In this document: positions 20,101 to 31,143 of the stretch, in pieces
How the letters are laid out: each line of letters opens with the position of its first letter
Position numbering within the stretch: position 1 is the stretch's first letter
Origin: Formosimonas limnophila
GTDB lineage: Bacteria > Pseudomonadota > Gammaproteobacteria > Burkholderiales > Burkholderiaceae
Length of the DNA stretch: 64,000 nucleotides
Reading direction: 5' to 3'
NCBI RefSeq assembly: GCF_014652675.1
Contig: NZ_BMZG01000006.1
Span: 1-64,000, forward strand
Program-made: the position numbers and the translations under genes
Notes under the pieces: model-generated
The model's database searches: none
Told to the model about the DNA's origin: nothing
The model's input: only the letters and a program-made list of their open reading frames with translations

Positions 20101-20454
20101 GGGGGCGACTTGGCTTCGACGTGGGTTACAAAGTTGAAGAGGGCATGCCGAGGACTGTTCACCTCGTAAATCAAACAGAAAAAACTAAACGCAAACAATA
20201 AAACGTTCGCATTAGCAGCTTAATCGCTCGCTAGCCGCCGTTCTCGGTTGTCTTTGGCTGAGATAATGGCGTCATTTACGAAGAATCGACGGTATTTGGG
20301 TGACTTAAATACGGTTTAAATCCAAGGTCAATCGCGAGACAAGTGTCAGCTGGGTTGATGCGACTCTCGCTAAAGTTGAAACAATCCAGCTAAGCATGTA
20401 GAACTCTCAATAGAGGGCTTGCGGACGGGGGTTCGATTCCCCCCGCCTCCACCA
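20101..20454 (+). ncRNA. ssrA: Transfer-messenger RNA (one-piece tmRNA)
   Basis: tmRNA rescues stalled ribosomes and tags their products. The 5' end GGGGGCG pairs with CGCCTCC before the encoded 3' ACCA, with one G-U. The T-arm GGGTTCGATTCCC is intact and CCA is encoded. The tag reading frame (20191-20223) encodes ANNKTFALAA and stops with TAA; the LAA end is the ClpXP signal. The molecule is a normal one-piece form, not permuted. A terminator follows at 20488. Confidence 0.97.
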
Positions 20455-20487: not shown

Positions 20488-20523
20488 AAACCCAGTAAAT
20501 ATCAATGTTTACTGGGTTTTTTG
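20488..20523 (+). terminator. Terminator of ssrA
   Basis: A 12-bp stem AAACCCAGTAAA / TTTACTGGGTTT (8-nt loop) is followed by T-rich sequence, 34 nt after the tmRNA 3' end. Confidence 0.9.
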
Positions 20524-20533
20524 TTGTCCGACA

Positions 20534-20746
20534 ACATCCGACGATGTAGAAGGGCTGGAGTTAGAAGTGCTAAAAGGTGCGCGAAAATGGATTAAACAAT
20601 CCAACCATCCTGCGCTTTTGCTTGAGGTATGGGGAGACTATATGCCCACACAGATCCCAAAAAGAGAAGCCTTAATAAAGTTTGTCACCGAGACGCTTGG
20701 CTACGAAGTCGAAGTATTTGGCGAGTTATGCATTGCAATACCCTGA
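20534..20746 (+). pseudogene. C-terminal remnant of an FkbM-family methyltransferase
   Basis: From about 20540 an open frame encodes DDVEGLELEVLKGARKWI, then HPALLLEVWGDYMP, ending in TGA at 20744-20746. This is the typical C-terminal half-motif of FkbM SAM methyltransferases (DVEG-E-EVLKGA, then LLLEVW). There is no start codon or N-terminal domain upstream; the frame runs straight out of the ssrA terminator. It is a decayed fragment, located at the tmRNA 3' end where mobile islands commonly integrate. Confidence 0.75.
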
Positions 20747-20958
20747 GCGAAAAAATTCAACATAGTACGTCATGAAACAGGGCCGGGCGTCGACCTTATC
20801 ATTGCTTAATCAAAGACTTATGCTGTCTTTGATTAGCAGCACGTTCATTTAACCATTAATCTTTTATTTTGTAGGAGGCATCTGTATGTGATGCCTTTGC
20901 TGATAAAGCTTGGTAAATAAGCCCCCTATGTCACTTAGGACAATGCCAGTAAACAGCA
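20747..20958. other. Intergenic region with inverted repeats
   Basis: There is no gene. It holds a perfect 11-bp inverted repeat TAATCAAAGAC / GTCTTTGATTA (20807-20835) without a T-run, and a 7-bp repeat AGGCATC / GATGCCT (20876-20896) followed by TT. Either may terminate the leftover FkbM fragment. Confidence 0.5.
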
Positions 20959-22149
20959 TTACACCGTCGCCCAAACATACCCACCGTTATCCCACGGCAC
21001 AAACGCCACTTTCGCAGCACCTGCGATGACTTCAAGACGGACGACTTCGTGTGGCTGCACGACATCATCCATCCACGCGACGTCTGCGCCGATGCGCTCG
21101 GAGGGCATGGTAACGGTTCCGTTCTCAGCACCGGACATTTGGTCGAGGTAGGTGGTGCCGTAGCTGACTTTGATCTCTCCTTCGTCAAAGGCATCCACGG
21201 ATTGATGCCAGCGATACGATGGCCAGATGAAGTCAATCTCATTTTGCTCTGGCATGTAAACCGCACCGTACAAGGTGCCATAACCTCTGTGAAATGAAGT
21301 TTGGAACACGGGTGGTTGCATGAGGGCATTGGTCATGGTGGATAAATCAACACCATTACTTAAACACGCATTGAGTGTGTCGCGTCGCTCGACGCTGCGT
21401 GTGGCGCGGGCGTGCGCGAGCCACATGACTTCGCCTTGAAAGTTGGTGACCACTTTTTCGGTCACGACTTGGGGTGCGCGATCAGGGGCAAGGTGGACGA
21501 TGACGTTAAAGCCAGTTTTGTCTAACACGGTGACCGAGTAGCTCATGTGTGAAGGAATGCGGTTGAGCATGGCGACGGCTTCTCGTCCACTGGTGGCGAA
21601 CTCGAGAATATAGCGCAAAATGATAGGCACACCGAAGCCTTCACCCACGATGGTGCGCCCACCAAACGAGAGAGAGACGGCGACGCCTGACTCGTTCATG
21701 CCATCGAGCACCCCCCAGATGCAGTCAGACATGGCGATGACGCGCTGATTGTGCCATTTGGTCGAAAACATTGAGCCTTCGAGCAGTGCGGGGGAAAAGT
21801 CATAGTTGCGAAGGAGCGCATTGTTGGTGCTGCTGACAGATGGGTTGGGATTTTGCCAAATCGCTTGTGAGCAGCCCGCGATGAACGGTGGCGGTGTCCA
21901 CAGACTGAGAAATCGCGCTTGCGCGTCTTCGCCACCGAGCATTTCGGTGAGCTTCTCGTACATGGGTACCAGCTCAGGCATGTGTGTGCGCATCGCGCGA
22001 CGACATGCGAGATAGCTGGGGCGACGAGTCAGACCACCCCAACCGTACCAGCGCTCATAGGCTGGCCAAAAATGCTGGGCGCGGGCGAGCCATTTGTGAG
22101 ATGGCGCGTCTTCTGACATGGCGCGAAAGTGTATGGTGGATGTGCCCAT
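20959..22149 (-). CDS. C45-family acyltransferase/amidohydrolase (penicillin acyltransferase-like)
   Basis: This Ntn-hydrolase-fold protein of 396 residues resembles acyl-CoA:6-aminopenicillanate acyltransferase (peptidase family C45). Those enzymes are made as inactive precursors and cut themselves before a cysteine, which becomes the nucleophile. Here G92-C93 in IAGCSQAIW fits the Gly-Cys cleavage site, leaving a pro-segment of about 92 residues. The later LLRNYDFSPALLEGSMF motif also fits. The reaction should be amide hydrolysis or acyl transfer; the substrate is unknown. The neighbours are an ATP-grasp ligase, a PLP decarboxylase and a nitrilase, suggesting a shared amide pathway. The Shine-Dalgarno is weak. 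Confidence 0.85.
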   Translation of the reverse strand: MGTSTIHFRAMSEDAPSHKWLARAQHFWPAYERWYGWGGLTRRPSYLACRRAMRTHMPELVPMYEKLTEMLGGEDAQARFLSLWTPPPFIAGCSQAIWQNPNPSVSSTNNALLRNYDFSPALLEGSMFSTKWHNQRVIAMSDCIWGVLDGMNESGVAVSLSFGGRTIVGEGFGVPIILRYILEFATSGREAVAMLNRIPSHMSYSVTVLDKTGFNVIVHLAPDRAPQVVTEKVVTNFQGEVMWLAHARATRSVERRDTLNACLSNGVDLSTMTNALMQPPVFQTSFHRGYGTLYGAVYMPEQNEIDFIWPSYRWHQSVDAFDEGEIKVSYGTTYLDQMSGAENGTVTMPSERIGADVAWMDDVVQPHEVVRLEVIAGAAKVAFVPWDNGGYVWATV

Positions 22150-22160
22150 AGATGATGGTC

Positions 22161-22266
22161 AAAAGCGATGAATCGCTTTTTTAATTTAAATTTGGTGCAT
22201 AAGCAACGATAAGTAGCGTTGCTCTTTTTCCATCGTGGGGCAAGATTCACACTCGCACCACGATGG
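22161..22266 (-). promoter_or_regulatory. Three stacked inverted repeats between ATP-grasp and C45 genes
   Basis: The 137-nt spacer holds three perfect hairpins: AAAAGCGA/TCGCTTTT (22161-22180), AGCAACG/CGTTGCT (22202-22223) and CCATCGTGG/CCACGATGG (22230-22266). None has a T-run on the minus strand right after it, so they look less like simple terminators and more like processing, stability or regulatory structures. The first has a T-run on the plus strand. Confidence 0.55.
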
Positions 22267-22286
22267 TTCAAAGCCACATCATACCA

Positions 22287-23741
22287 TCACAGAATCTTAA
22301 ACGAGCCTGGTGCAGGCGCATACGTGTCAGGCGTGACGACAATTGGCGCACCGCCGTAGTATTTCTTAATCCCTGCAATCCAATCGCGCGCACGCAGATT
22401 CAAGCGGAAATCATCATTCATTGAACGACCACGGGTGATGAGAATACCGAGATCCGCGCCTTCGTAGCGGTAGTCGCCAGGGCCTGTGATGCGCTGGAAG
22501 AACGCTTCACGCTCAGAGTCAATCGCTTGGCGATTGTAGTCAAAGCGGTGATATGAAACTGCACCATCCTCTGACATGCGGTAAATGCCCGATGGTGGCG
22601 CGTGGGTGACGACATCCACACTGTTTTCCACATGTTTGATGACCACTTGGCTCCAACCGTCGATGAAGTACGGTTCGGCCCAGCGTGCATTCAATGTTTT
22701 CGTATCCAGTTCATACGGCACACCCGAGAATTCCATCAAGTGGAACAAGAACAACGGCGCATCCGCATACGCAAACGCCGCGTGGTTCGTCATCGGTGAC
22801 GCGCCGCAAATGCGCGGGTTAAGCTCGCCGAGATAGACTTCGTTGGTGTCTTTGTCAATCAAGAAGTCCAAATCAAAATACCCACGATAGCCCTCATTAA
22901 CCAGTTGGTCACCGAACTTCATCGCCATTTCACGCGCTTTTTGACGAACCTCTTCGGAGAATGCACCAGCAAACACTTCATTGCCACACCAGCCGCCTTT
23001 GTACGGCGTGAGCTCTGCTGCACCAACCACTTCGGTGAGCAATGGACCAACCAGCGTCCCTGAGCGCGTCGCGACCGCTTCAAGCGTTGCGCCACGGCAG
23101 TTGATGCGCTTCATGATTTTAACTTCTGGGTCTTTAATGATGTCATCGGCGTGTTTGTCAAACTCGTCTTTGTTACTGATGAAAAACGTCGTGTGACCTG
23201 AGTCACCAAACGCCGTTTGCACTACAAGGTGCTGACCCAAACCATGATGCTCTGCAATTTTCATCAAGTGCTCATAACTATCTACCTTTTCCAAAGCATT
23301 CGGCACAGATGGCACACCAGCGGCGTTACCAATGCGCACGGTTTCCATCTTGTTATCGCAGCGCGTGCGCAATGCCGCCGACGGAAACCACAAATCCAGA
23401 TTCAACTCGCGACACAACTCCTCGGTTTTTTCATCAAACATGAGAAACACTGCCGCAGGATCACCTCCATTGCGCTCGATGTAATCAATCACCGCTTTGT
23501 GTTGCAACAAATAATTGTTGATGTCCTCAATCGACTCAAACTCTTCATGCGGCAGTTTCGGTGGCACAAACACATTCGGATGACGGCCATCAAAACAATC
23601 AATGTAATTGATATAACGGAACCGACGCACCCAACGGTCAATCCCCATCAGGTTAAAGTTCGTCGCGCTGATGAAGTAAATCGGCTTTTCATTGCGGTGA
23701 AAAAACAAATTCAAATCCGAAACGTTACGGATGGTTTGCAT
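22287..23741 (-). CDS. ATP-grasp ligase (carboxylate-amine ligase-like)
   Basis: This 484-residue enzyme has an ATP-grasp fold. Visible family features are a KMETVRIGNAAGVPSVP segment before the lid, a central acidic FDLDFLID and a metal-binding LGELNPRICGASPMTNHA (E..N..). ATP-grasp enzymes join a carboxylate to an amine or thiol through an acyl-phosphate. I do not recognise the exact subfamily. AGGAG lies 6 nt upstream of the ATG. It sits between a PLP decarboxylase (supplier of an amine) and a C45 amide enzyme, which suggests amide formation with a decarboxylation product. That link is inference. Confidence 0.85.
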   Translation of the reverse strand: MQTIRNVSDLNLFFHRNEKPIYFISATNFNLMGIDRWVRRFRYINYIDCFDGRHPNVFVPPKLPHEEFESIEDINNYLLQHKAVIDYIERNGGDPAAVFLMFDEKTEELCRELNLDLWFPSAALRTRCDNKMETVRIGNAAGVPSVPNALEKVDSYEHLMKIAEHHGLGQHLVVQTAFGDSGHTTFFISNKDEFDKHADDIIKDPEVKIMKRINCRGATLEAVATRSGTLVGPLLTEVVGAAELTPYKGGWCGNEVFAGAFSEEVRQKAREMAMKFGDQLVNEGYRGYFDLDFLIDKDTNEVYLGELNPRICGASPMTNHAAFAYADAPLFLFHLMEFSGVPYELDTKTLNARWAEPYFIDGWSQVVIKHVENSVDVVTHAPPSGIYRMSEDGAVSYHRFDYNRQAIDSEREAFFQRITGPGDYRYEGADLGILITRGRSMNDDFRLNLRARDWIAGIKKYYGGAPIVVTPDTYAPAPGSFKIL

Positions 23742-23899
23742 GGTTGTCTCCTGATACCGAAGGTTAGTTATTGTTACTGCACTTTATCAATCATTACATT
23801 AATTGGCTTATGGAGCCTATTGAAACTCACAACTCGTTACTCGTAAATCATAAAAATTAGGGTTGGATAAGCCTTCTTTAGCCACCCTCATCAAAACAA

Positions 23900-26752
23900 T
23901 CACTCACCCGGCTGAATCACCGTCTGCAAAGCAGCTTCCGTAAACACGCGGAATCCAAGTTCTGGACGATAGCCGTGAATTTCTTTCACGTCGAGTGCTT
24001 CCATGAAGTCGACGATTTCTTGTGAAACCACTTGACCAGGCACGAGAATCGGAAAGCCTGGTGGGTACGGAATCACAAACATCGCCGAGACGACGTCACG
24101 CCCTTTGGCGATTTCTTTTTTAATTGCGCCAAAGTGGAAGTATTCACAGTTCTCTTCGTCATACGATAAAAAGAATGGGCGGCGAATATTACCATCGGGG
24201 GTGATAATGGCTTCGTGGATTTTGTCTGCTTTGGATTTGCCTTTGGCCGCTTTTTCGGTTTTGGCTGTGCCTTTTTTCTCTTCTTTCTCCAGATTCACCA
24301 GTGATTGCTTGGTGCTGTGTTGAAACGCGGGGTGAAAGCGTGAGAAATCAGGCAACGGCGGCAAGTCTTCGGTCAACGACTTGATGCGTTGTTCGTGAAT
24401 GCGTTTTTCCACCGCGCTCATGTCTTCGACACGCTCGTCAATTTCTTGGGCGATTTTCACAAGCACTTCAATCAAATACGCCACGCTGGAGCGCGTCGTG
24501 CCGATATTGGTCATGAACAACACAGAGTTGCGTGAGGTTTTGTTGATTTGAATACCGTACTTATCCATTAAGTATTTGTTTTTGAACGTGTCGCCATCAA
24601 TGCCTGTCGCGCCAATAGCAAGGGTCAAGCGCGACGGGTCAAGCGCAAACTCGTCTTGAACCCACGCCGCTTCCATGTTGGCCCAGCCCTTTTCGACGCT
24701 GAAATACGCGTCAACGCCTGAGCTACGGTACTCCGCTGGAATCATGTCGGCAACTTTGAGGAAGCTGAAGTATTTTTTGAGCAGCGGGTGCGAAGCGATG
24801 CGCTCGCGCAAAGTCATGGCAAGATCGATTTGACGTTGAACCAGCTCGTAGCCTTCAAGCTCCACTTGACGGCGACCCACGTCCAGCGATGCCAAAATTT
24901 GGTAATTCGGCGACGTTGAAGTGTGGGTCATGTACGCTTCGTGGAAGGCTTCTTCGGTTTTGTCCTTGAAGTCTTGATCCCACACATGAATCATCGAGCC
25001 TTGACGCAATGAGGTTAGTGTTTTGTGGGTTGAGTGTGTGGCGTACACGCGCACGCGGGCTTTGGCTGGGTCAGGCAGCAGACGTGTGTTGAGCACTTTT
25101 TCATCGTCATCCCAATCCGCATCCGTCATGGTGGCGGCGAATTTTTCGTATTTGGCCAAATACTCAGGGTCTTTGAAGCGGGCTTTGAGCTGCGCAGCCG
25201 TCGCCATGGCCGTGCGATGGCGGTATGTCGGGTGGAATCGTGCGAACGCGAACCAAGCCTCATCCCACAAAAACACCAAGTCCGGTTTAATGGCCAAACA
25301 CTCTTCCATCACGCGTTCAACATTGTACACAACGCCGTCAAATGTACAGTTGGTGAGCAAAATCATGCGCACACGATCGAGCGTACCTGCTTTTTTGTAT
25401 TGCAGCAGCGTGCGCTTGAGTTCTTTAACCGGTACTGCGCCGTACATTGAGTATTCATTGAGCGGGTACGAGTCAAGATACGCGACGTGTGCGCCTGCAA
25501 GCACCATGCCATAGTGATGTGACTTGTGGCAATTGCGATCAACAATCACGATGTCGTCGGGTTTGACAATCGCTTGAACCACGATTTTATTCGCAGTAGA
25601 CGTACCATTCGTTGCAAAAAATGTCTTTTTAGCACCAAATGCGCGCGCGGCGTACTCTTGTGCGAGCTTGAGCGGACCAACAGGTTCAAGCAATGAGTCC
25701 AAACCGCCGCTGGTGGCAGAGGTTTCAGCCATGAAGACATTGAGACCATAAAATTCAGCCATGTCGTGAATCCAGTTCGAGTTCATAATCGACTTGGCAC
25801 GCGAAATCGGCAAGGCGTGGAACACACCTGTGGGTTGCTTTGAATACTCTTTCAACGCATTGAAAAACGGCGTGCGGAAACGCTCATGCACACCACGGTG
25901 AATGGACGTATATAGCTCTGTGTCATCTTCATCACGGAAAAACACGCGTTTGAAGACTTCACCCACTTTCGCACCGACTTCTGCCGCTGATACGTCTGTG
26001 ACCAAATACAAATCCATTTCGGGACGCAAGTTGTGCAATTGCTTGCCCAACATGATGCCTCGCTCAGACTCAGGCAAACGCTCAACCAAGTCAGCATCTA
26101 CGCCCGCGAGCATTTCGCGAACGAAGTCGAGTTGATACTCAGATTTGAATGGGAATTGGTGGCGGATAATGCACGCTTGCAAATTAAAGTTAAACAGCGT
26201 GGCAATCATCGCGTCCTCAAACGTCGGCGCGACCACCACATCATAGATGAATTGATCATCATTGCGACGCGAGCGGATGATTCGTTGGCGCAAGGCTTCG
26301 TGCTCATCGGCGGTCAAATCACCCACCACCAAAACTTCAAAGTACGGCTTGCTCATTTGCGCTTCGCGTTCGCGCTCTTCTTCGGCCACGATGTCAATCG
26401 ATTCAGGCGTTTCATCGACGTTGAACTCACGGTGACGATAAGTTTTGTCAGACAACATGCGATTGATGCGACGCACCGCTTTGTGCGCACGAATATAATC
26501 TGCCTCTTCAAACCAGCGGATGATTTCTGCAAACAAATGGCGACCCGGAAACGCCCAAAAACGCTCAATCGGTGCGAGCAACATCAAAATCGACGCGGCT
26601 TGCTCTAGTTGCTTGTCGAACTCTAGGGTGTCTGGCTTTTGCTCCACCAGGCGACCCATACAATCCGTGAGGGTAATCCAGCCGTCATCACGCATTTCCC
26701 AAACGCTGCGGTAACGATTGAGCGAGAGTGCGGGGGATTTGGTCTTTGCCAT
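23900..26752 (-). CDS. Orn/Lys/Arg decarboxylase family protein (fold-type I PLP)
   Basis: This 950-residue PLP enzyme of the basic-amino-acid decarboxylase family would make agmatine, cadaverine or putrescine, or a relative. A response-regulator-like N-terminal wing (about 135-270) is followed by the PLP domain with NGTSTANK (382-389) and the Schiff-base lysine K577 in ATHSTHKTLTSL. HTSTSPNYQILASL and the C-terminal domain complete it. It is longer than E. coli AdiA/CadA (about 710-755), with extra N-terminal helices and a Lys/Glu-rich insert at about 820-845. The start at 26752 has AGGAG 8 nt upstream; the longer frame to 26896 is rejected. DEAW replaces the usual DSAW near 497-500, so substrate specificity is uncertain. 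Confidence 0.9.
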   Translation of the reverse strand: MAKTKSPALSLNRYRSVWEMRDDGWITLTDCMGRLVEQKPDTLEFDKQLEQAASILMLLAPIERFWAFPGRHLFAEIIRWFEEADYIRAHKAVRRINRMLSDKTYRHREFNVDETPESIDIVAEEEREREAQMSKPYFEVLVVGDLTADEHEALRQRIIRSRRNDDQFIYDVVVAPTFEDAMIATLFNFNLQACIIRHQFPFKSEYQLDFVREMLAGVDADLVERLPESERGIMLGKQLHNLRPEMDLYLVTDVSAAEVGAKVGEVFKRVFFRDEDDTELYTSIHRGVHERFRTPFFNALKEYSKQPTGVFHALPISRAKSIMNSNWIHDMAEFYGLNVFMAETSATSGGLDSLLEPVGPLKLAQEYAARAFGAKKTFFATNGTSTANKIVVQAIVKPDDIVIVDRNCHKSHHYGMVLAGAHVAYLDSYPLNEYSMYGAVPVKELKRTLLQYKKAGTLDRVRMILLTNCTFDGVVYNVERVMEECLAIKPDLVFLWDEAWFAFARFHPTYRHRTAMATAAQLKARFKDPEYLAKYEKFAATMTDADWDDDEKVLNTRLLPDPAKARVRVYATHSTHKTLTSLRQGSMIHVWDQDFKDKTEEAFHEAYMTHTSTSPNYQILASLDVGRRQVELEGYELVQRQIDLAMTLRERIASHPLLKKYFSFLKVADMIPAEYRSSGVDAYFSVEKGWANMEAAWVQDEFALDPSRLTLAIGATGIDGDTFKNKYLMDKYGIQINKTSRNSVLFMTNIGTTRSSVAYLIEVLVKIAQEIDERVEDMSAVEKRIHEQRIKSLTEDLPPLPDFSRFHPAFQHSTKQSLVNLEKEEKKGTAKTEKAAKGKSKADKIHEAIITPDGNIRRPFFLSYDEENCEYFHFGAIKKEIAKGRDVVSAMFVIPYPPGFPILVPGQVVSQEIVDFMEALDVKEIHGYRPELGFRVFTEAALQTVIQPGE

Positions 26753-26828
26753 GTTGATACTCCTGTGTGATTTGATGTATCTGTTGTTGTGATTTTGTGT
26801 GATTCGGGTTTGGCTTTTTTTCTTATGT

Positions 26829-26864
26829 ATCATCAACGGATCCGCCACCAGTGCCGTTGATGAT
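26829..26864 (-). promoter_or_regulatory. Perfect 11-bp inverted repeat upstream of the decarboxylase
   Basis: Arms ATCATCAACGG and CCGTTGATGAT flank a 14-nt loop and are centred about 95 nt upstream of the decarboxylase start, just past the nitrilase terminator. It could be an operator or a leader hairpin. There is no T-run directly after it. Confidence 0.5.
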
Positions 26865-26893
26865 AAAAAACGCGCGTCAACTATGGCGCGCGT
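26865..26893 (-). terminator. Terminator of the nitrilase gene
   Basis: Arms ACGCGCG (26870-26876) and CGCGCGT (26887-26893) with a 10-nt loop are followed on the minus strand by six T. It lies immediately past the nitrilase stop codon and separates that gene transcriptionally from the decarboxylase. Confidence 0.8.
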
Positions 26894-26899
26894 CATTCA

Positions 26900-27829
26900 T
26901 CAACCCATCGGGCCGCTGATTTCCATGGCTTTGTTCATCGGATCGCCTTCTTGCTCCTCGTTCAAACCATCGTTGAGGTTACGACCTGGTTTTTTGAGCG
27001 GGCCGAGTGTGTGAAGAAAACCATCAACATTTGCCGTTCGGTCATACACGTGGAACTCGACAGGACGCTCACGGAATGATTTGAGCACTTGACCCAAACC
27101 ACGCAAACCTTGCTCACGTTCACGGCGCACCTTGCCCAAATCGACTTGTACAGCCATGATTTCGGGCATGACAGAGGCTTGGTGCACGACATAACCCGAG
27201 CAATCCACAACGCAAGATTGACCAACACCGCCATCACCGACGCCATTAACGTCAAAGAAATACACCTGATTTTGTGCTGCCGCCGCGCGACACATGGCCA
27301 ACTCAACTTCTCGGTCTATCGTATCGGTCATGGTCGGGTGAATAATGACCTCTGCACCCATTGCCGCCAAAGTACGCGTCGTTTCAGGAAACCACATGTC
27401 ATAGCAAATAGACAAACCAATTCGTCCAACCTCTGGGATATCAAACACGACAAAGCGATCACCTGCTGAAATACCCTGCTCATATGGATAAAACGGAAAC
27501 ATTTTGCGGTAGCGATCAACCACAATACCATCAGGGCTGATAATCGGGGTGGTATTGTAGATTCGACCATCAAGCTCTTCAAACATTGAACCAGGAATCA
27601 ACCACATGCGGTATTTTGCTGCAATCGCTTGCAAACGCTGCTCAGCTTCACCGGGCATCGGTTGCGCATGAATTGGGGAAGAACCAAACACGCACAATTC
27701 AGAAAACACCATCACGGTGACCCAAGGGAAGCGTTTACGCACATGAGCGACATATCGCTCCATCATATCAATATTGTCTGCAATTGCCGATACAGGCATT
27801 TGCACGCCCGCGATACCTAAAATTGTCAT
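26900..27829 (-). CDS. Carbon-nitrogen hydrolase (nitrilase superfamily)
   Basis: This nitrilase-fold amidohydrolase of 309 residues cleaves non-peptide C-N bonds. The catalytic triad is visible: E44 (FSELCVFG), K109 (DRYRKMFPFYPYEQG) and C142 (LSICYDMWFPET). The pattern is closer to aliphatic amidases and N-carbamoyl-type hydrolases than to true nitrilases. The start at 27829 has AAGGAA upstream; a longer frame from 27886 is rejected. It is first in the minus-strand series nitrilase, decarboxylase, ATP-grasp, C45, but has its own terminator. A role in agmatine/carbamoyl-putrescine-like chemistry is possible but unproven. Confidence 0.9.
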   Translation of the reverse strand: MTILGIAGVQMPVSAIADNIDMMERYVAHVRKRFPWVTVMVFSELCVFGSSPIHAQPMPGEAEQRLQAIAAKYRMWLIPGSMFEELDGRIYNTTPIISPDGIVVDRYRKMFPFYPYEQGISAGDRFVVFDIPEVGRIGLSICYDMWFPETTRTLAAMGAEVIIHPTMTDTIDREVELAMCRAAAAQNQVYFFDVNGVGDGGVGQSCVVDCSGYVVHQASVMPEIMAVQVDLGKVRREREQGLRGLGQVLKSFRERPVEFHVYDRTANVDGFLHTLGPLKKPGRNLNDGLNEEQEGDPMNKAMEISGPMG

Positions 27830-28336
27830 GCTTTTCCTTATTTTTTGAGGCGATGCGTTTTTACTGTGTCTTTGGTAACGCATCACTTCGCTTTAAAACT
27901 ATCCAACCCATCTACTTTGGCACTAATTTTTCAAACAATGATTTCACCTGTAAAAGCCAAAACTACTAAACAATTTTACAAACATTACCTTTCTTGTAGA
28001 ATAATCTTTTGCGTCCTGCGTGTTTCACATGAAACTTATAGCTTACAAAAAAGCTAAACCCTTGATTTTACTGGCTTGGCGAAGCGAAGAGCGCACAGTT
28101 TACCTGCGCACTAGCTATGCGTCAACGGTTTTTCAGGGTGATTATGAGAAAAACTGTGGAATGATGGGCTTTTTGTGATGTGCGCTGCACCATATCAGGG
28201 AGATGTGGCAATTCTTAAATAAACCTGTCCCTTTTATTTTTCGGTAAGTGCCTTTTTGCTGTTTTTTTGACGTCCTGCGTTTTCTTAAGGAATTGGCCAA
28301 CTGACCAAAACTTTCAGAAGGCCCAACAAACCATGC
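27830..28336. other. 507-nt intergenic region with degenerate parS-like site
   Basis: No credible gene. It contains GATGCGTT/AACGCATC (27852-27884) just upstream of the nitrilase, a 16-mer at 28021-28036 differing from parS at two positions, and a 10-bp direct repeat CGTCCTGCGT (28012-28021 and 28271-28280). The nitrilase promoter should lie here; no clear -35/-10 is seen. Confidence 0.5.
28021..28036. other. Degenerate parS-like site
   Basis: TGTTTCACATGAAACT matches the parS consensus TGTTTCACGTGAAACA at 14 of 16 positions. One mismatch breaks the central CG. It may bind ParB weakly or be a decayed site. Confidence 0.4.
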
Positions 28337-28576
28337 TTAAAGCTCTGGTGGATTCATTTTCTTGTCATGACGCCATTGAGAAACGCGCCAATCAAATTGA
28401 GTAATAACCGCTGCCAAAAAAGCGTACAGCGCCAATAGTTTGGGGGACAGGCCACTGCCAGAGACCAGCTGAATAGTACCTGTGAACACCACCACTAAAA
28501 GCATTGTGGTCAAAATATACCGCCATTGACCTTGCTTTTGTAATTTTTGAAAACGAGAGACTTGAGGAGAAGGCAT
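28337..28576 (-). CDS. Small two-helix membrane protein of unknown function
   Basis: This 79-residue protein has a basic N-terminus, two hydrophobic segments (WRYILTTMLLVVVFTGTIQL and LLALYAFLAAVITQF) and a charged tail. ATG at 28576 is preferred over a longer frame to 28654 because AGGA precedes it and the extension overlaps the gyrB terminator. I do not recognise the family. It is downstream of gyrB beyond a terminator. Confidence 0.6.
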   Translation of the reverse strand: MPSPQVSRFQKLQKQGQWRYILTTMLLVVVFTGTIQLVSGSGLSPKLLALYAFLAAVITQFDWRVSQWRHDKKMNPPEL

Positions 28577-28595
28577 GGAAATCCTATGGCTATTT

Positions 28596-28622
28596 AAAAA
28601 CCAAGCATTTGCTTGGTTTTTG
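28596..28622 (-). terminator. Terminator of gyrB
   Basis: A 10-bp stem AAAACCAAGC / GCTTGGTTTT with a 4-nt loop is followed on the minus strand by TTTTTAAATA. It starts about 30 nt after the gyrB stop. Confidence 0.85.
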
Positions 28623-28650
28623 GTTGAATAATCGATGGATGACACTTGAA

Positions 28651-31143
<2,493 letters not shown>

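Follow-up and report, generated by a model that had tools for sequence, protein, structure and literature searches.

Why should the genes of a nitrilase-superfamily amidase, a long decarboxylase dependent on pyridoxal phosphate (PLP), an ATP-grasp enzyme and an autoproteolytic amidase lie side by side in a bacterial genome? The question is raised by a stretch of 64,000 nucleotides from Formosimonas limnophila (contig NZ_BMZG01000006.1, positions 1 to 64,000), referred to here as the window, in which four intact open reading frames (ORFs) follow one another on the minus strand between positions 20959 and 27829. Their products are designated NIT, ODC, ATPg and C45, respectively. An initial annotation of this DNA had named the same enzyme classes, which profile matches bear out, and had proposed that the enzymes could together make and process an amidated polyamine or a polyamine-peptide. 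The four genes prove to be a conserved unit, and the chemistry that we tentatively favour for it would turn on acidic amino acids, at the node formed by glutamate and gamma-aminobutyrate (GABA).

Linkage of the four genes across bacterial genomes

A search of genome contigs with the ATPg protein alone recovered 117 relatives among 149 candidates, the best 80 of which were kept as named loci (prefix L). These 80 come from Pseudomonadota and from metagenome-assembled genomes named as Phycisphaerae/Planctomycetota, Myxococcales, Bacteroidota lineages, Trueperaceae and Eisenbacteria; the spread beyond Pseudomonadota is that of named loci and not of a balanced sample. A first clustering of ORFs, whose overlap rule discarded core genes, kept ATPg in 63 of the 80 loci; linkage was therefore counted by tblastn at a minimum of 34% identity, on the same strand and within 4.5 kb. 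Beside ATPg, NIT is found in 60, ODC in 66 and C45 in 74 of the 80 loci. In the 54 loci with flanks of 4.5 kb or more on either side, the corresponding counts are 46, 46 and 51, and all four genes are present in 36. The initial annotation had proposed to judge its grouping by co-occurrence in other genomes, and the neighbourhood does recur, including in distant bacteria. The closest named locus among the best 80 relatives, that of Hydromonas duriensis (L035), shows the identical order of all four genes and an ATPg of 92% identity, and the type strain of Acinetobacter baylyi, DSM 14961 (L042), carries the four in one row. Gene order varies from NIT-ODC-ATPg-C45 to NIT-ATPg-C45-ODC in Accumulibacter and ODC-NIT-ATPg-C45 in L101; the linkage therefore survives rearrangement.

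A sample of 398 genomes of the window's phylum (prefix G) was drawn blind to neighbourhood. ATPg exceeds 500 bits in 11 of them (8 above the curated cut-off), C45 reaches E <=1e-30 in 13 and ODC E <=1e-120 in 17. All 11 genomes with ATPg carry ODC and C45 within one locus; NIT is there in nine, and none was found in the ATPg locus region read in G073 and G045. The pairwise distances of the four proteins are also correlated over 46 complete sets (r 0.72-0.85, with 0 of 999 permutations as high), a correlation to which the common descent of the hosts contributes. The four genes form a real conserved unit, and the evidence for linkage beyond chance is strong. A literature search, which reached few subscription papers, found no description of the four-gene neighbourhood and, in agreement with the initial annotation, no characterised pathway with this set.

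In the window, the intergenic gaps measure 147, 158 and 137 bp. Two hairpins with T-rich flanks, reported on the plus strand by pattern scan only (22161-22180 and 22202-22223), lie between ATPg and C45 and represent a possible terminator or attenuator. Such a scan counts 18 terminator-like sites in the interval 20500-28700, compared with 10.0 +/- 3.1 in shuffles. Because of the gaps of 137-158 bp and the two hairpins, we regard a single transcript across the four genes as only possible. Beyond the C45 gene, a tmRNA gene (tag ANNKTFALAA) occupies positions 20101-20454 of the plus strand. An ORF at 28651-31113, near the four-gene set, resembles gyrase B by eye, and a gyrB-like ORF is also present about 5 kb from the C45 gene in L142 (G083).

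The four enzymes and their catalytic residues

The residues listed in the initial annotation were verified in NIT, ODC and C45, and the ATP-grasp residues are invariant. ODC (23900-26752, ATG at 26752) is 950 aa long; its ORF, of 998 aa, opens with an ATG 48 codons upstream of this likely start, and the median length of the clustered orthologues is 942 aa. The OKR_DC major domain is present (PF01276, 260 bits for a cut-off of 27) with its PLP lysine, K577, in the motif STHK. ODC remains below the curated NCBIfam cut-offs, with best scores of 211/968 bits for the lysine, 187/1167 for the arginine and 170/794 for the ornithine models (here and below, score/cut-off). At the PG-E motif, the Glu is replaced by Gln907 (encoded at 24034-24032), giving PG-Q. 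The same replacement occurs in 18 of 18 family members aligned with Escherichia coli AdiA, CadA and SpeC, all three of which have Glu, and in 67 of the 68 ODCs longer than 700 aa across the loci, that of L125 being the sole one unmatched by the pattern. The motif FHAxPxxRG is matched by 63 of these 68 proteins and reads FHALPISRA in the window. The second OKR enzyme of the window genome retains the PG-E Glu and PGHSGG. The decarboxylase is the long and atypical member that had been described initially. Its closest solved full-length relative is the 'probable amino acid decarboxylase' of PDB entries 9n0n and 9n0o (845 bits). This Rv2531c-type decarboxylase (9n0n, 9n0o, 9n0p) has the PG-Q motif and the long N-terminal part, both as in the window ODC; a passage of a review states that its structure study left the enzyme activity unclarified (PMC12910592).

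ATPg (22287-23741, 484 aa) matches NCBIfam NF005096 (PRK06524, named 'biotin carboxylase') with 780.7 bits for a cut-off of 684 and contains an ATP-grasp domain of the CPSase_L_D2 type according to a Pfam profile. Residues E306, N308, P309 and R310 are invariant in 53 aligned sequences. The AlphaFold model (pLDDT 90.3) has PurK, biotin carboxylase and the ligase PylC as near-equal matches among its top-ranked hits (Z about 23, root mean square deviation 3.8-4.6 over 322-393 residues), and the fold alone therefore leaves the reaction unnamed. An identity as biotin carboxylase was set aside: the score against the subunit profiles is at most 36.8/723 bits, the name stems from NF005096 alone, and the fold fits ligases too. 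The 'biotin carboxylase' of PRK06524 may well be a ligase.

C45 (20959-22149, 396 aa) is an Ntn-type autoproteolytic amidase or acyltransferase by profile (NF040521, 135 bits for a cut-off of 85; PF03417, 88 bits). Residues C93, R114, D117, N236 and R255 are present and invariant in 39 of 39 aligned sequences; we take them to be the Ntn-CGH site residues (Cys after Gly, Arg, Asp, Asn, Arg). The window protein has the G92-C93 pair; a residue other than Gly precedes the Cys in L065, L071, L073 and several further sequences. The structural model (pLDDT 85.2) has a fold nearest to isopenicillin N acyltransferase (2x1c, E 1.5e-10), followed by acid ceramidase (9.8e-9), bile salt hydrolases (1.0e-8) and NAAA (1.7e-8). 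The Cys-Arg-Asp-Asn-Arg set of these Ntn folds is conserved in C45, with an identity of 13-15% in the structure matches; the substrates of these acyltransferase, ceramidase, NAAA and bile salt hydrolase relatives are not transferable to C45. The window protein is about 60 residues longer than the orthologue median (396 vs 336 aa; 392 aa in L035), and its C-terminal stretch (20959-21141) is largely of low confidence in the model. C45 relatives without an adjoining ATPg are found in G167, G280, G339:C8 and G070:C10, in uninformative surroundings. In L151, a gamma-glutamyltransferase gene (645/358 bits) is located within a few kb of the cluster; a gene that looks similar by eye is near the lone C45 of L154.

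NIT (26900-27829, ATG at 27829, 309 aa) belongs to the carbon-nitrogen hydrolases (PF00795, 121 bits) and has a complete catalytic triad, E44, K109 and C142. The solved chain nearest to it, 2w1v, carries the label nitrilase homolog 2. NIT reaches no NCBIfam cut-off, the best score being 76/500 bits, and its candidacy as N-carbamoylputrescine amidase (AguB) was rejected at 74.3/410 bits against TIGR03381.

Genomic surroundings

Genes of GABA type recur beside the cluster. A GabT-type ORF cluster is present in 32 of the 80 loci, for a chance expectation of about 5 (a hand estimate from 7 class III matches in 2.2 Mb), and an aldehyde dehydrogenase (ALDH)/GabD-type cluster, which includes ALDHs other than GabD, in 24. 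Loose BLAST labels give instead 39 loci with GabT, 29 with ALDH, 15 with MocR and 8 with PuuR; loci L135-L142, L150, L151 and L153-L160 were labelled with the same BLAST set. The order GabD-GabT-NIT-ODC-ATPg-C45 is frequent in the loci named as Planctomycetota. In Acinetobacter piscicola (L038), the GABA transaminase (573/507 bits) and the succinate-semialdehyde dehydrogenase (677/646) are both above cut-off; the pair of L104, the sole Phycisphaerales pair scanned, is slightly under (495 and 619 bits). Regulators similar to MocR/GabR or to PuuR are also recurrent near the cluster (in L096, PuuR 169/211 bits). In the window genome, another contig carries a gabT-like gene, 58% identical to that of L069, beside an ORF that looks gabD-like by eye. 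From such neighbours, GABA is indirectly supported as the node of the cluster.

ATPg and C45 also occur without ODC; the loci concerned are L071 and L073 of Thiofilum and Thiothrix, L067, and L123, L129 and L133 on plasmids of Shinella type. These ODC-free sets comprise a 5-guanidino-2-oxopentanoate decarboxylase (770/500 bits), an agmatinase-family enzyme and an ALDH, together with a D-amino-acid dehydrogenase and a racemase-like protein. The guanidino-oxopentanoate decarboxylase, agmatinase-family enzyme, ALDH and D-amino-acid dehydrogenase form a set that, by established chemistry, would convert arginine to GABA. On one such plasmid, ODC is found at a separate site, near arginase and ornithine cyclodeaminase genes. 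GABA would be the simplest metabolite common to the versions with and without ODC.

NIT is retained in the absence of ODC at L039, L040, L041, L043, L059, L060, L071 and L073. A replacement for ODC was considered in Aquitalea (L039), where the two genes before NIT form a KdpD/KdpE pair by eye and are uninformative. The rhizobial version without NIT has an AS-family amidase gene alongside. On Rhizobium leguminosarum plasmids, ODC-ATPg, with or without C45, lies near nif genes (L125, L131) or near genes for ribosomally synthesised and post-translationally modified peptides (L127); a peptide-type ATP-binding cassette transporter, an AS amidase and a MurR-type regulator are also present in L125 and L127. 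In L131, C45 is apparently disrupted, since none is annotated and transposase genes follow ATPg. In two loci of Bacteroidota type, a small protein resembling VOC/glyoxalase proteins by eye directly precedes ODC (6794-7195 in L109, 6370-6801 in L114), and tblastn found no C45 nearby.

The substrate of ODC is approached through the wider neighbourhood. Within two genes of the cluster there are 206 neighbours, of which 81, mostly on the same strand, were scanned with profiles; they are not independent, because close relatives are among them. Transporter families of acidic solutes are represented by SBP_bac_3 (9 of 81), SDF (5), TRAP DctM (5) and Na_sulph_symp (2). Sister ODCs without ATPg were viewed in four of the six sampled genomes that have ODC but no ATPg and in three of 15 plasmid records with a 43-46% identical ODC, outside R. 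leguminosarum; in all seven loci they adjoin AspT-type antiporters. In L159, the antiporter is above the Asp:Ala cut-off (701/547 bits) and adjoins an aspartate 4-decarboxylase (780/435). The antiporters beside the sister decarboxylases of L157, L158 and L160 score 371-379/547 bits against the Asp:Ala model, which suggests that these AspT-family proteins exchange another pair. No AspT appears in the gene tables of L143 and L147, whose ODCs lie away from ATPg and are 57-64% identical. Catabolic routes ending in acidic amino acids are also encountered at the cluster, each in a single context. In L101, ODC adjoins PutA (1445/747 bits), which yields glutamate. In L139, the whole set lies inside a cluster for the degradation of ectoine, which ends in aspartate, with EhuR, DoeA and DoeB above their cut-offs; L138 matches its order by BLAST label and by eye, the profile scan being that of the L139 proteins only. 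In both loci, NIT-ATPg-C45-ODC is located between an Lrp-type regulator and ALDH/aminotransferase genes.

Because of the Gln at PG-E, the AspT-linked sisters and the neighbours of glutamate, aspartate or dicarboxylate type, the ODC family probably acts on acidic amino acids, a view that this sequence context supports indirectly. These features and the GabT/GabD-type neighbours point away from the basic substrates assumed in the initial annotation. For the amidated polyamine that it envisaged as product, no support was found in residues or neighbourhoods.

Candidate pathway, rival readings and known counterparts

The reading that we favour, with due reserve, is a conserved module for catabolism or salvage, placed at the glutamate-GABA node and composed of an acidic decarboxylase, an amide-forming ligase, two amidases and an exit through GabT and GabD. 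ODC would be the alpha-decarboxylase of an acidic amino acid, the conversion of glutamate to GABA being likeliest and that of aspartate to beta-alanine second. ATPg, as a carboxylate-amine ligase, would couple a partner via an amide to the omega-amino acid or to the precursor of that acid, and the two amidases, C45 with its N-terminal Cys generated by self-cleavage and NIT with its Cys-Glu-Lys triad, would reopen such amides. GabT and GabD would then convert GABA to succinate. What is only inferred is the amide, together with its partner and the reaction direction. An amide step was chosen because ATPg and C45 accompany both GABA routes, because beta-alanyl and GABA amides have known ATP-grasp ligases and C45 amidases (carnosine synthase, Tan), and because an AS amidase gene is found alongside the NIT-less rhizobial version. 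To account for a ligase encoded with two amidases, C45 could transfer acyl groups rather than hydrolyse the amide, or the conjugate could be a store.

Several observations weigh against this reading. A ligase next to two amidases is odd for plain catabolism. Among the 398 genomes, ODC occurs without ATPg in 6 and C45 without ATPg in 2, and second C45 copies exist in G339 and G070; in the 54 well-flanked loci, NIT is lacking nearby in 8 and C45 in 3, and there are rhizobial loci without NIT. Five of the eight well-flanked ODC-free loci belong to Aquitalea or Acinetobacter and have no visible GABA source, none being found near the ODC-free loci of Acinetobacter qingfengensis and Aquitalea, and the loci with arginine genes are also compatible with arginine as substrate. 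No true GabT lies beside any of the 11 loci from the 398-genome sample, and the linkage to GABA is therefore clade-dependent; the class III aminotransferases of L138 and L139 share 34% identity with GabT, and G007 alone among the 11 has a GabD-like ALDH nearby (62% over 211 aa). The 81 scanned neighbours also include SBP_bac_5 (4), MFS_1 (3) and amino-acid permeases (2). The transporters of acidic type are below the specific cut-offs (Glu/Asp SBP 211/375, DctA 364/513, GltP 324/638 bits), so that an acidic solute is supported at family level only. As for the PG-E motif, the argument assumes that its Glu contacts the substrate, a point on which the literature search found no paper.

The same genes can be assembled differently, as arginine or ornithine catabolism with a detour resembling gamma-glutamylation. 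ODC would produce agmatine or putrescine, ATPg would acylate the amine as PuuA does, aldehyde enzymes would oxidise the product and C45, like PuuD, would free GABA, with NIT stripping a carbamoyl or amide group. The membership of ODC in the OKR family fits this scheme, as do the PuuR-like regulators (8 of 80 loci by loose label, and L096), the arginine-to-GABA set of some ODC-free loci, the GabT/GabD-type ORFs near the cluster, and the plasmid ODC near arginase and ornithine cyclodeaminase genes. The Glu to Gln change at PG-E, the families of acidic-solute transporters and the AspT linkage of the sister ODCs argue otherwise; moreover, no amine oxidase was noticed, with 81 of 206 near neighbours scanned, and succinate-semialdehyde dehydrogenase is the best-scoring assignment for the two scanned ALDHs that are linked to GabT. 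We consider this scheme unlikely, though a serious competitor, and the cluster may have a role in arginine catabolism, since some ODC-free versions stand inside the arginine-to-GABA set. If the substrate were basic, arginine or ornithine would have to become an acid of GABA level, and no oxidase was noticed; ODC might then be an oxygen-using PLP enzyme that forms a carboxamide, as Cap15 reportedly does, with NIT converting the amide to the omega-amino acid. NIT stands directly before ODC in many loci, but it persists at the eight loci without ODC, and we hold this variant for a long shot.

ATPg might instead be a biotin-independent carboxylase that adds CO2 to a nitrogen of urea, a guanidine or an amine, and the product would be hydrolysed by C45 together with NIT or, in rhizobia, with the AS amidase. 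The fold matches to PurK and biotin carboxylase and the AS-family amidase gene of the NIT-less rhizobial version are in line with this idea, which nevertheless appears improbable: the scores to the biotin carboxylase subunit profiles do not exceed 37/723 bits, PylC and other ligases are matched at similar Z, and genes that should yield urea were noticed only in a few loci of arginine type. Finally, the four genes could be functionally unrelated and merely co-located. The gaps of 137-158 bp, the hairpins and the 18 of 54 loci in which ODC, NIT or C45 is missing or displaced would agree with this, but linkage in distant bacteria with altered gene orders and the presence of ODC and C45 in all 11 of the 11 genomes that have ATPg make it very hard to believe.

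Should the glutamate-GABA reading hold, three enzyme families with guessed names would share one context: the ODC family, which has a solved structure, would gain a testable substrate class, PRK06524 a context and C45 physiological partners. More doubtful is the bolder proposition of a widespread bacterial pathway by which an amide of GABA (or of beta-alanine) is formed and recycled, as a counterpart of homocarnosine or of the Ebony/Tan conjugates. In it, a decarboxylase of Rv2531c type acting on an acidic amino acid would supply the little-explored PRK06524 ligase, and the C45 enzyme and the nitrilase would set the omega-amino acid free. With relatives in Pseudomonadota and in metagenome-assembled genomes named as Planctomycetota, Bacteroidota and others, such a new metabolite, if true, would be common.

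Further known systems invite comparison. In carnosine and homocarnosine metabolism, an acidic amino acid decarboxylase, the ATP-grasp enzyme CARNS1 and a dipeptidase are at work; in Drosophila, Ebony joins beta-alanine to an amine in an ATP-dependent manner and the hydrolase Tan, of the C45 class, completes the pair. The likeness of both to the cluster is one of general enzyme roles and not of compared sequences. The AspT/AspD sets of decarboxylase and antiporter, which we infer to be acid-resistance-like, are related through the sister ODCs, 43-48% identical to that of the window, and an aspartate 4-decarboxylase is near in two loci; unlike the cluster, the sister-ODC loci show no ATPg or C45. 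The GABA shunt and Puu pathway offer another parallel. Neither PuuA, of glutamine-synthetase fold, nor PuuB/gamma-glutamylputrescine oxidase was noticed in the 95-locus gene-order table, in which many neighbours are unlabelled, the profile scan covering 81 of 206 near neighbours. The cluster repeatedly has genes of GabT and GabD type and regulators resembling PuuR or GabR as neighbours, and the logic of ligase plus hydrolase is alike, but here the ligase is an ATP-grasp enzyme and the hydrolase a C45 protein.

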